Source of the DNA: Cucumis sativus
Lineage: Eukaryota > Streptophyta > Magnoliopsida > Cucurbitales > Cucurbitaceae
Assembly (NCBI RefSeq): GCF_000004075.3
Contig: NC_026660.2
Coordinates: 30,879,498-30,943,497, forward strand
Direction of reading: 5' to 3'
DNA length: 64,000 nt
Under the pieces are notes generated by a model that was not told the origin of the DNA, did no database searches, and saw only the letters and a list, made by a program, of their open reading frames with translations. Shown here one piece after another: positions 20,444 through 41,942 of the stretch. Numbering within the stretch: position 1 is the first letter of the stretch; every line of letters begins with the position of its first letter. A program made the translations under genes and the position numbers.

Positions 20444-30802
<10,359 letters not shown>

Positions 30803-36433: not shown

Positions 36434-39400
36434 ATGCTGCGGAACCTTCATACACGGCGTCGCGGTTCCTATGGCGCCTGCTTTTGCGCCTTCGCCGCCG
36501 CTTTGCTGCTTCTATTTTCAGTCTCCCTTCTGTACACTCGCCTCTCTCGCTCTCAGTCACACACTCACTCTCCTCACATGTATCCTAAATCTCTAGGCAA
36601 CATTCTCGTCTCTGATTCAGATGATGATAGCGACATTGTTTTGGGAACTACTACCACCGACGAGGACAAGATCGATGAGCTCGATTTTGTGGATGAGGAC
36701 CTCCAATCTAGGGCTTCCGGCGATGAGGATTTGGGAGAGGATGAAGATCAATCTGATCAGGTCAGGGTTTCTGGATTTTATTTTGACCATGTTAGTGGGG
36801 CTATTAGGAAGGTCTTTGATAACAAACGTTCCATCGAAGATTGGTCTGATGACACTTCTGGTTTTCCTATCGGATTAGGTGAAGTGGATCGCAGTAAATC
36901 TGCGTTTGGCTCTGATGATGTACCGGTTGATGAAGAGGTGAGGAGGAAAGCAAGTGAAATGACTGGGATCGAGGACGCGCTTTTGTTGAAGGTGGGTGGA
37001 AGAGTTTCGCCCTTGAGAGATGGGTGGGGAGACTGGTTTGATAAAAAGGGCGACTTTTTGCGGAGGGATAGGATGTTTAAGTCCAACTGGGAAGTCCTCA
37101 ATCCACTGAACAATCCCCTTTTGCAAGATCCGGATGGTTTGGGTGTGGCCTCTCTAACTAGAGGTGATCGAATTGTTCAGAAGTGGTGGATCAACGAATT
37201 TAAAAGAGCTCCGTTTCTTGTTAACAAGCCATTGGGTGTTACACGGAAGGTCTTTAATACGGAAGTAGAAAATGGCAGTATGCATGCAAGCATCAAGAAG
37301 AGCGGGAGCCTAAGTGGTCAGACTGATATAAACTTCATGGACAATGGTAAGAAAACTGTAAATGAGATTGGGACTTCAGATGAACGCACTCGGAATAACC
37401 TTTCGAGGAAGAAAGTTATCAATTTTGATGAAGATTCGAGTTCCCGTTTTAGTGGCTATAGAACTTCAATATCTAGGAGTACTAAGAACGAGAAGAGTGG
37501 AGAAAGACGCACAGAAAAAGCTGATGTAGGGGATAAGCCGGTACTTACTAAGGGTGCAGGATTTAAACCAAAGGCTGTGCCTCATACTTTGACTAGTGTA
37601 TATGCAGATGGCAAGAGATGGGGTTATTATCCTGGCCTACATCCGCATCTGTCATTTTCTCGTTTTATGGATGCATTCTTCAAGAAAAATAAGTGCGAAA
37701 TGAGAGTTTTTATGGTTTGGAACTCACCTCCTTGGATGTTCGGGGTTCGGCATCAACGTGGGCTAGAGAGTGTGTTCTTGCATCATCAAAATGCATGTGT
37801 TGTTATTTTCTCGGAGACAATTGAGCTTGATTTCTTCAAAGATAACTTTGTGAAAAATGGGTAATTATCATATGAAAGTCTTGCAAATTCACACATATTT
37901 TATTTTTGTGATTAACTGCAATTTTTGTTCAACAGTTACAAAGTTGCGGTTGCTATGCCAAATCTTGATGAATTACTGAAGGATACACCAACCCATAAAT
38001 TTGCTTCCATCTGGTTTGAATGGAAAAAGACGGAGTTCTATTCCACTCACTACAGTGAGCTTGTACGTTTGGCTGCTTTATACAAGTAAACCTTCTCTCA
38101 CTATCTCTAAATTTTCATTTTTTCTATTAAGATATTTATGAATGCAACTTTTCAACTGTACAACATGGTTTGTGCGTCGTCTTTTTGTTTCTTGCCAAAT
38201 GACAAGGGGCTAGAAAAACATTAGGGGAGATCCTTATTCCAAATATTACTAGACGATATTTCATTTTGAAGGCTGCACAAGAGTCAATTACTTAATATTG
38301 TATAATATTTATCATTCTTAAGGGCTAAATATATGTGCTTATTTCTGATTCTAGGCTCACAAATATGTAAAAAAAATTGATTTCATGTTAGGATAAGAGC
38401 TACAAAAAGAGGTAGGCAAGGAGATGCTATGTCCACATTCTTCTTTTATAGGTTTCTTTACATGAAGCCAATTGTCAATGTTAAAAAGTTTGGACCATTT
38501 CTCAATTTATGCATGTCATCCATTTGCAGGTGCCATGTTAATCTTCTATATATTGTTTCAATTTGATCGGATGTCCCCGAAGGGACGAAGCCATTTGTCA
38601 ATGTTATTAGGTCATAATTAGAGGTGCTCTTCTACTTGTAACCCTCAACAAGAAAAGGCAAACTCACTACCATCATCCAATTTCCTTTTGTGAAAATCTA
38701 CATGTTTATGAGGGTTTTATATGTGTGTATATTTTTGTGCATTAAAGAGGGTGCGGTACCTGGGATTAATGCCTGCTAGGTTGGATCATAATGTTTAGAA
38801 GACAATTTCTCCGGGAAATAGGGCCAAGAACTACTTGAGTAAATTTTAGTGACATTTAAATGTAATCATCTTATTATGGCAAAGGCATGTCTGAATTTTG
38901 TACGGAGTTTTGATGGTGTATTTGATTTTTCTGATTAACTACATTACAAATTTGTTTCATTCTTCAGGTATGGTGGAATCTATCTTGATTCTGACATTGT
39001 AGTCTTGAAACCTCTATCCTCGCTTCACAATTCTGTTGGGATGGAGGATCAGCTTGCTGGAAGTTCTTTGAATGGGGCAGTCATGGCATTTAGAATGCAC
39101 AGGTATGTGGCAGTTTAAAAACGGGTATTGGTTCTCAGAAAATTCATATTCAGCTTAGGAATCGTCTATTTTATTTAAACAGAACGAAATTTTCTTTTCT
39201 GAAAACATAATGGCTGATAACATCTTTTGACTAGTCTAACTTGAATGAACATGTTTCTGGAAGGGAAAAAACATTTTATGATGTAGAAAAAAAGGAGAGA
39301 AAAAAAAAAAGAGTAAGAAACCCCGTTTACATTGAGAAAAATGAAAGGATATAAAAGGCATAAAGTATCAAGTCCCAATAAAAAATGAAGTTCGACCTTC

Positions 39401-41942
39401 ACTGAAAAAAATAGGAAAAGAAAGACTTCAATCCTATAAAACTGCCGATATCATAATTACAAAAAGGTCTAGAGGCTAACGGCCACAAAACCTCCTCATC
39501 GGGACTCTTGAGCTTTCTTTTAATTCCATTGTTTCTCTCAAGCCAAATAAACTTGCAAAGAAGCTTGCATACCAAAACACATTGCCCTTGATGCAAAAGC
39601 CCCTCCTCCAACATACAAAAAGTTAAAAGATCGAGAGATCGACACAAAATTGAAATAAATTTCCTGTAGAAAATAAATGTCTTCTAAGCTTTTGAACTAT
39701 GGAGGGTTTAGATAAAACTCCCACAATGTATATGAACAGAGGCCCTGAAATATAACATACGTTGTGGAACTCTAAAAGTCACAAAATAACTTTTTTCAAA
39801 ATTGTAGGCAGGTGACCAAACGTGCCCCAGCGTTTTGATGGTCCCCAAGGACAGACTAGAGGTGGTTTAGAACATGGGAGAGAAATTATAAATGTATTCG
39901 TTGATATCCTAGCAAACCTGCTGGGGCTGCATGAATGTGCAACTTTTTTTTCCTCTTTATCCTTGTCATTTGACCAAGTTGACAATAACAGCAATATTAA
40001 AGCAGCACTAACAATGATAGTTAATATATTGACTAATGTTTTCGTTGTATATAATTGTTGTCAGGTTATCTGTACAGTTTTGTTCATTAAAAATTTAGAT
40101 TCTTCTGTATTTACTTCCAGCAACTATCTTGTAAAAGTATTTGATAGGTTCCTTTATAAAGAAAATGTATTTGATAGGTTGGGGGAACTGTCAAGTGTTT
40201 CTCCACGTTGTCAAACACTTCACTAATCACTGAGCGGTACACGGTGACCACATTTGTCTTACTAATCTGATTACCTTGGATTCTTTTGTTGAGTTATAAG
40301 TTCTACTTTTCTGCAGCCCCTTTATAATGGAGTGTATGAAAGAATACTACTCAACTTATGATGATAGAAGCTTTAGATGGAATGGGGCTGAGCTCTTGAC
40401 AAGAGTTGCAAACAGGTTTTCCAGCGAAGTGCCTGCAGAACAGTTTGAGTTGACTGTGCAGCCATCTTTTGCATTTTTTCCCATTGCTTCACAAAATATC
40501 ACTAGGTAATTTCGGATTAAATTTGCTCGTGCATCTTATCCTTATATACGAATCTACATATTATTAGCATCCTGACTTCTGAGTCTGACATTATTCACAC
40601 ACACACACACACAAAGTCACATTTTAGTTAAAAGATAAAATGTACGAATACTTTCAAGGAATTGCCAAAACAGTGATTGGATTGATATGCATTTTTTTAG
40701 CAAACTGTAAGCCAGAATTGGCTGATCAGCCTACGAAAGTGTCAGCCAATTCGAGAGGGTTGAGTTTTCTTTATTCCGAACACTATGCCTTTTCCTTTCC
40801 ACTCCTTACTTACCTATTTATAGTAATAGGTTTTTTACCCTTCCTCACATGCATATTTACGATTGGAGGCAGACTTCTCACGTGAGGGAATTAGAAAGGA
40901 GAACAATCTAATAAAACCCTTTAGAATCTTGTACAAAGAAAGGCTACAAAGATAACAGAATTTCGAAGTACAATCCAGAAATTCTCCTTCTCGACGAAAA
41001 TACTCTGTTTCCGACCTAACATACTAAAGGATAGCCCACAACATTTTGCTCTGGAAGGTGGAATTAGAGGAATGGCTGTTGGATAAAAAATGACTTTCAC
41101 ATTGTTTTGGAGGGCACTTCTTACATTGAAACTTCCCTCTTCCCGTTTGTGTGAGTTCTCTCCGTCTGCAAATTAACACGTGAGGTCTGTCTATTCCATA
41201 TCTTCATAGCATAAATTAGAAATGAACATTTATCTATAATAATCTCACCCACCCCTGTTTTTCTTTTGAACTTCTTTCTCTGCTGTTTTTCTGGCGTCTG
41301 TAGAAGTAGAAGGCTCTTTTGTGACATCAATCACTCATTTTTCTTTTGCTTTCTCCCACACTGTCAATAGGCCCCAGGTGGCCTATTGGGTAATGCGAGA
41401 AGTGTTGAAGGAGGTTTACTTTTTCCCCAGGCCTCCACCGTTCATGTAGTTATTTTCTTGAAAATCTTACAGCCCAGCTGCCATGATTCGACAATTTGAT
41501 ATTAGTCGTGGAGATCGGATTCAACTCCTTAGGCACCTAGTTGCTTTCTTGGGGACATTTTGGAATCAAAGCAAAGTTATTCAAATAGGCACTTAATCTG
41601 TTCTTTCTCTAAACATGTTATGCAATCTAATAAGTTGAACTATCTGTTGTGGAACTTTGATTTAATTACTTGAACCATCTGTTGTGGAACTTTGCTTATT
41701 TCAGTTTAGATGATTTAACTTTTCGTTCTTGTGCAATCAACGATATTGCAAATAGATACTTTGCTGTACCAGTGGGTGCAACCGAAAAGGCTGAACATGA
41801 GTGCTTACTGAAGAAAATCTTGGAAGAGTCGGTGACATTTCATTTTTGGAACAGCCTGACATATTCACTCATTCCCGAGTCCGAGAGCCTTGTGAGCAGA
41901 CTCCTCCAACATACTTGTATCAAATGTTTAGATGTATTGTGA
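36434..41942 (+). CDS. Golgi alpha-1,4-glycosyltransferase-like protein with DXD motif (At4g19900 type)
   Basis: Five exons (36434-37860, 37936-38085, 38968-39102, 40317-40505, 41756-41942) encode 695 residues. A short basic N-terminus and one hydrophobic helix (about 14-36) give type II Golgi topology. Residues about 60-410 form an acidic, poorly conserved stem. The catalytic part contains [17 protein letters not shown] with the DXD at 533-535 (Gly_transf_sug family) and continues into an alpha-1,4-glycosyltransferase (Gb3-synthase-like) domain with NGAELLTRV and [12 protein letters not shown]. It matches the plant family of At4g19900. The sugar donor and acceptor are unknown. It is somewhat longer than the ~644 residues I recall for Arabidopsis, mainly in the stem. 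Introns 2-4 carry a U6 pseudogene, a LINE fragment and unclassified repeats. Confidence 0.92.
38464..38606 (-). pseudogene. Retroposed U6 snRNA pseudogene with target-site duplications
   Basis: On the minus strand 38586-38483 aligns from end to end with plant U6 snRNA: it starts GTCCCTTCGGGGACATCCG, has GAAGATTA-CATGG-ACCTGC in the centre, and ends GAGAAATGGTCC followed by a T-run. Substitutions are mostly C-to-T or G-to-A. The ACAGAGA box reads ATATAGA and the AGC triad reads AAC, so it cannot be functional. No USE or TATA precedes it. Twenty-base direct repeats with one mismatch lie at 38464-38483 and 38587-38606, abutting the U6 5' end, as expected for LINE-mediated insertion. It sits in intron 2 of the glycosyltransferase. 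Confidence 0.93.
39230..39670 (-). mobile_element. Truncated LINE 3' fragment in glycosyltransferase intron 3
   Basis: Minus-strand 39560-39516 reads [15 protein letters not shown], the W-x-E-R-N-N motif of LINE ORF2 C-termini; further down the frame is [14 protein letters not shown]. The A-rich plus-strand segment at 39280-39360 is the reverse of its 3' tail. It lies antisense to the host gene and is degenerate. Confidence 0.7.
40590..40615. repeat. AC dinucleotide microsatellite
   Basis: About nine CA units in intron 4 of the glycosyltransferase. Non-coding simple repeat. Confidence 0.9.
40880..41350 (-). mobile_element. Possible degenerate LINE-type repeat in glycosyltransferase intron 4
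   Basis: The segment 'cttgtacaaagaaaggctacaaagata' resembles the heads of the other LINE tails (compare 11390), and downstream sequence has the same pyrimidine-rich style. No decisive protein motif was found. Confidence 0.25.

Follow-up and report, generated by a model that had tools for sequence, protein, structure and literature searches.

A probable U6 snRNA retropseudogene in a predicted glycosyltransferase intron of Cucumis sativus, and its mostly 3'-truncated relatives

The 64 kb stretch of Cucumis sativus DNA analysed in the current study (the window) carries part of a glycosyltransferase gene on its plus strand, in which an exon at nt 38968–39102 follows a predicted GT...AG intron (nt 38086–38967). 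The intron was placed between two frames, ending in ...AALYK and beginning with YGGIYLDSD..., which join across it, while the end of the downstream exon was taken from a GT; a match to Gly_transf_sug (PF04488, E 4e-06) falls within nt 38939–39118. On the minus strand, at nt 38484–38586, lies a U6 snRNA sequence with base 1 at nt 38586 and the terminal T-run on the low-coordinate side, so placed that it would sit antisense within the intron, as an earlier, sequence-only reading of the region had proposed. At gathering thresholds no other Rfam match occurs in the window (RF00026, 81.6 bits, gathering score 44). That reading had called the sequence full-length and had named an alignment to less than half of U6 as evidence against itself; the match covers all 105 model positions (1–105).

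The U6 sequence is bracketed by the only pair of direct repeats detected between nt 38300 and 38800. The repeats are 20 nt long and identical at 19 positions (95%), one copy lying beside the 5' end of U6 (nt 38587–38606) and its partner, at the 3' end, marking the insertion site (nt 38464–38483). The 5'-side repeat stops exactly at U6 base 1, and the 3'-side repeat begins within the T-run with an overlap of 1 nt, the fifth T at nt 38483 being common to both. These are the 20-base repeats with a single difference described earlier. Significance of target-site duplications (TSDs) was judged against mismatched flank pairs, of which there were 2448 for U6, and none of these reaches the score of 18 obtained here (99.9% quantile, 14). 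The nick on the primer strand reads TGTT/ATTA, or TGTTA/TTAG if the longest TSD is taken, an ambiguity of 1 nt. The copy ends in the natural U-run and has no A tail, although two untemplated A's at the end of the U6 RNA would go unnoticed, since the target itself reads AA at this point. At the junction the overlap between U6 and target is 1 nt, which is the level expected by chance.

The surroundings of this U6 copy occur twice in the genome. A 1201 bp segment around it is present in two places on contig C6, with 100% identity and in opposite orientation (twin locus L010). Four of five mirrored 500-bp samples also match, at 99.6–100% (window positions of about 27.0, 30.0, 45.0 and 55.0 kb), while the sample meant for 63 kb has no match. 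The window from about nt 26996 to 55504 thus corresponds to an inverted copy at C6:31096611–31125110, at the end of chromosome 6, which is either a recent segmental duplication or an assembly error. L010 was considered as a second insertion and ruled out, because the inverted duplicate is 100% identical over the 1201 bp.

Compared with U6 gene L001, the window copy shows 14 differences in 104 nt. C>T and G>A changes account for 8 of these, and four of six CpGs have disappeared. Among the altered positions, ACAGAGA has become ATATAGA, TTAGCATGG has become TTAACATGG, and AGC now reads AAC; the first and last of these are the ACAGAGA box and the AGC triad, both of which the sequence-only reading had described as broken. 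The bases of the 5' stem-loop, GTCCCTTCGGGGAC, are unaltered. Upstream, no USE is present (the best candidate, at -56, has 5 mismatches in 11) and nothing resembles a TATA-like run with fewer than 3 mismatches in 7. When the 1201-base segment is used as a query, the U6 genes match bases 584–689 only, that is, the RNA part and none of the flanks. As far as can be read from its letters, the window copy is inactivated, having lost both its promoter and its conserved boxes. The same bias is found when substitutions from 45 non-gene loci are pooled, with C>T and G>A together making up 246 of 392 and the reverse transitions 39. The earlier attribution of the decay mainly to C-to-T and G-to-A changes, as expected from loss of methylated cytosines, therefore holds for the copy and for the set.

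The genome searched comprises 226.6 Mb in 88 contigs (C6, 31.1 Mb). The U6 model finds at least 48 places among the best candidates scored, and a DNA search adds three short ones, giving at least 51 loci. Four of these are genes with a promoter, one is the relic of a gene and one the duplicate of the window copy, which leaves 45 other U6-like loci. The four genes are identical across 103 nt and have a TATA-like run as well as a USE at -66 with 0–1 mismatches. No other locus has so few mismatches to the USE (2 in the relic L022, at least 4 in all others). The TATA-like run is a poor discriminator, several promoter-less loci also carrying one with 1 mismatch. The relic (C4:18940546–18940654) lies about 0.8 kb from gene L004 and retains a decayed USE at -67 and a TATA-like run but no TSD; it is probably a dead gene rather than a retrocopy.

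For the TSD counts, L010 was removed and L022 included, leaving 46 non-gene loci. Significant TSDs are present in 28 of these at p<0.05, where 2.3 are expected, and in 22 at p<0.01; an alternative scan with other windows gives 26 and 21, respectively. None was found in the four genes or the relic (0/5). The remaining 18 of the 46 loci show no significant TSD, and these include the fairly well preserved L006, L017, L049 and L050. One of the 28, L029, is the tandem neighbour of L016 and shares its 3' end and target, and it was left out of the set of independent events (n = 27). At L016, 1500–1700 (C3:28270065–28270262), two diverged U6 copies stand head to tail, each ending ...CACAAATC and each followed by the same target, and behind them is a further remnant consisting of CAAATC plus target. 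This arrangement reflects either duplication in tandem or the repeated use of a single insertion site.

The TSDs of the 27 events are 11–32 nt in length. By manual count from TSD position, 22 of the U6 inserts begin no more than about 5 nt from base 1, the 5'-truncated ones being L008, L042, L044, L046 and L048. The 3' ends are far more variable: eight lie at base 98 or beyond, and 19 at or before base 93 (37, 68, 69, 70, 73, 73, 75, 80, 81, 81, four times 83, 87, 87, 89, 90 and 93). In 18 of these 19 truncated events the 3' end falls between bases 68 and 93, and in none of the 27 between 38 and 67, a range in which the copies would be short and harder to detect. LINE copies are classically 5'-truncated, whereas these U6 copies mostly keep their 5' end and vary at the 3' end, where copying starts. 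L014 is the only truncated event in which a separate A run, of 12 A, lies between U6 (base 93) and the TSD; in L033 an A run is also present in the target copy. An internal 3' end with the TSD directly after it and no A tail is thus the commonest form (18/27). A bare T-run end is found in the window copy alone, L019 ending in T's followed by A's. In L031 (C5:19668711–19668816) the last U6 bases, AAATGGTCCAAA, occur twice in succession ahead of the TSD, as though the reverse transcriptase had slipped or begun anew.

At the 3' junctions, U6 and target share more bases than expected. The mean is 1.89 for the 27 events relative to 0.81 (sd 0.20) when targets are shuffled among events, with eight gapped junctions counted as zero, and none of 5000 simulations reaches it. 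The truncated events taken alone (n = 19) give 1.79 versus 0.70 (0/5000). Ten of the 27 junctions have no shared base. Selection of loci on TSD score may raise the apparent overlap at the junctions; when overlapping bases no longer count towards the score, a smaller excess persists (1.58 versus 0.78, 4/5000, n = 24). The target preference is slight. The first base of the TSD is A in 17 of 27 events (63%, p 0.0009) and the second in 15 (56%, p 0.0096), relative to a background of 32%, while T before the cut is barely raised (37% at -1 and 44% at -2, background 33%); the window copy, with its ambiguity of 1 nt, reads TGTT/A where an L1-type cut on the primer strand would read TTTT/A. The excess at the junctions fits pairing of a nicked end with short stretches inside U6, and the endonuclease motif is weak.

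A possible source of the enzymes is present in the genome. The zf-RVT domain has at least 150 matches, from 1685 candidates, and among the matches listed 14 have the same score. The 3' parts of seven of these were examined: six show 95.6–98.4% identity to the remaining one across about 680 nt, and each of the seven ends in poly(A). One copy contains an open frame of 1219 aa with Exo_endo_phos, RVT_1 and zf-RVT domains. The family is represented by loci L097–L103 (3' parts) and by L098 together with L104. The genome therefore contains a poly(A) LINE that was active recently and encodes an endonuclease and a reverse transcriptase, and a LINE of this resident type would have mobilised U6. The dead LINE copy that had been suspected nearer to the U6 sequence, at nt 39230–39670, was not confirmed. 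It contains a 94-aa frame with no Pfam match; a protein search with it returns only itself and its duplicate, a DNA search with the whole stretch returns that stretch, its duplicate and three weak pieces (71–87% identity), and tblastn with the LINE ORF of this genome gives nothing better than E 6.8 here. It may be a very old LINE remnant.

The window copy is, with high confidence, a processed U6 snRNA pseudogene, now dead, that was retroposed by LINE machinery. Retroposition by target-primed reverse transcription is consistent with the TSDs at both exact ends, the missing promoter, the decay and the 26 further independent U6 events with TSDs, and LINE-type reverse transcription of a pol III RNA, as first suggested from the window alone, is well supported by them. 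In this process a LINE endonuclease would nick the intronic target, and the freed 3' end would prime reverse transcription on U6 RNA, at or just beyond the terminal U-run. The cDNA would extend to U6 base 1, and repair of the staggered cut would leave the TSD of 19–20 nt. The order of nicking given here is presumed. U6 copies with TSDs that arose in this way would number at least 27 in the genome. In most events reverse transcription would start inside U6, often at a point where it agrees with the target in a few bases, producing copies that are 3'-truncated and have no tail; the template would be intact U6 rather than cut RNA. The ends of the resident LINE are a counter-point to this model, as they are poly(A), yet in just one of the 19 truncated U6 events (L014) does a separate A run precede the TSD.

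Other origins for the window copy were considered. That it is a living variant of the U6 gene is scarcely credible, as the full length and the conserved 5' stem-loop bases are set against a missing USE and TATA-like run, the altered ACAGAGA and AGC, and 14 differences from four genes that are identical to one another. Copying or movement of a U6 gene as DNA, followed by promoter loss and decay, has possible parallels in this genome: L022, with its decayed USE, its position near L004 and no TSD, resembles such a case, and the twin L010 is itself a DNA-level inverted duplicate. For the window copy it is nevertheless very improbable, given TSDs placed exactly at both ends of the RNA and similarity to the genes that stops at the limits of the transcribed part (bases 584–689 of 1201).

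Two further alternatives accept retroposition and differ in how copying began. The direct joining of T-run and TSD in the window copy would suit a LINE able to recognise a U-run at the 3' end of its template, and Ohshima, in a passage on p-SINE and Au-like SINEs, suggests such partner LINEs for these T-ended plant elements (PMC3747384). This is improbable here, though less so than a DNA-level origin: the bare T-run is seen in 1 of 27 events, L019 has A's after its T's, 19 of the 27 end internally, and the seven LINE copies examined end in poly(A). For the truncated copies, the template may instead have been U6 RNA that had already been cut at its 3' side. Recurrence of 3' ends between bases 68 and 93 in 18 of 19 events speaks for this, as does L014, in which 12 A after base 93 are what an adenylated cut RNA would give. 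With no A run of their own in the other 18, and with the excess of shared bases at these 19 junctions (1.79 versus 0.70, 0/5000), a cut template is judged unlikely, although it is the most plausible of the alternatives, and priming inside intact U6 by a nicked target end is preferred.

Other spliceosomal RNAs were searched as well, with 23 matches to U2, 20 to U1, 13 to U5 and 7 to U4, counts that are not comparable with those for U6, as scoring against the whole model penalises 3' truncation more heavily in longer RNAs. The upstream sequence of 13 U2 loci reads N, leaving ten with readable flanks, and three of these (L053, L072 and L074) have TSDs at p<0.01, a level judged against only 110 null pairs. 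Their inserts measure 84, 34 and 49 nt, respectively, and are thus 3'-truncated; with these copies the process seen for U6 extends to U2. Twelve of the U5 matches are gene-like, having a USE with 0–1 mismatches, and the thirteenth has neither USE nor TSD.

The window copy itself is ordinary, a new case of a known kind, and the set to which it belongs is more useful than the single copy. U6 retrocopies mark past LINE activity, and they flag loci that should not be mistaken for genes, for example when U6 promoters are chosen for genome editing. What should interest a specialist most is mammal-like tailless retroposition of U6 in a dicot. We consider it likely, with some reservation, that L1-type LINEs of plants resemble therian L1 in priming reverse transcription within structured nuclear RNAs, and that in one small dicot genome this has happened repeatedly with U6. 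If true, relaxed L1-clade enzymes of two kingdoms would share tailless retroposition as a general property, and the trait would not be mainly therian.

Among plants, a survey of Arabidopsis snRNAs lists 13 U6 copies, nine of them likely active (PMC545797), and no title or abstract opening in the open-licence literature searched has plant snRNA or U6 retropseudogenes as its topic. Dicot genomes contain L1-like mRNA retrocopies, which share TSDs and LINE-like hallmarks with the copies described here; the cases presented in that source are a handful, come from mRNA templates and have a poly(A) tail as a hallmark, unlike the U6 set (PMC4838847). The p-SINE and Au-like SINEs, as described by Ohshima, resemble the window copy in deriving from a pol III RNA and in having a T-run beside the TSD, whereas the other TSD-bearing U6 copies have no bare T-run end (PMC3747384).

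Mammals provide the best-known parallels. The snRNA copies described by Doucet et al. (2015; PMC4476161) have TSDs, are in many cases 3'-truncated and tail-less, show complementarity at the 3' junction, in line with the excess of shared bases in the U6 set, and lie at L1-like sites. That set is mostly human and includes U6-L1 and poly(A) classes, while the plant set consists of 27 TSD-bearing events with one A-tailed copy and a weak target motif. Tailless retropseudogenes, as the class is named by Noll et al. (2015; PMC5322556), who also cite Schmitz et al. (2004), were reported there from therians and the anole lizard, with internal priming by a relaxed L1 taken as their source; the plant examples given there are eight U2 copies, all from maize, a scarcity read as a possible extra restriction on the retroposition of random RNAs. 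The rate in Cucumis sativus, 19 TSD-bearing 3'-truncated U6 events in 227 Mb or about 84 per Gb, may be set beside the 194 (human) and 34 (mouse) per Gb given in the same source for 5S, as a rough yardstick only, since both RNA and filters differ. The consensus TT/WAAAAWWX stated for the tailless class is stronger than the A-rich start found here. Like that class, the U6 set is mostly 5'-complete and 3'-truncated, with TSDs and an excess of bases shared with the target at the junction. The window copy, being full length to the U-run, lacks the internal 3' truncation by which the class is defined and is not a member, but most of its TSD-bearing sisters are tailless retropseudogenes, and the U6 set as a whole represents this mammalian pattern in a dicot.
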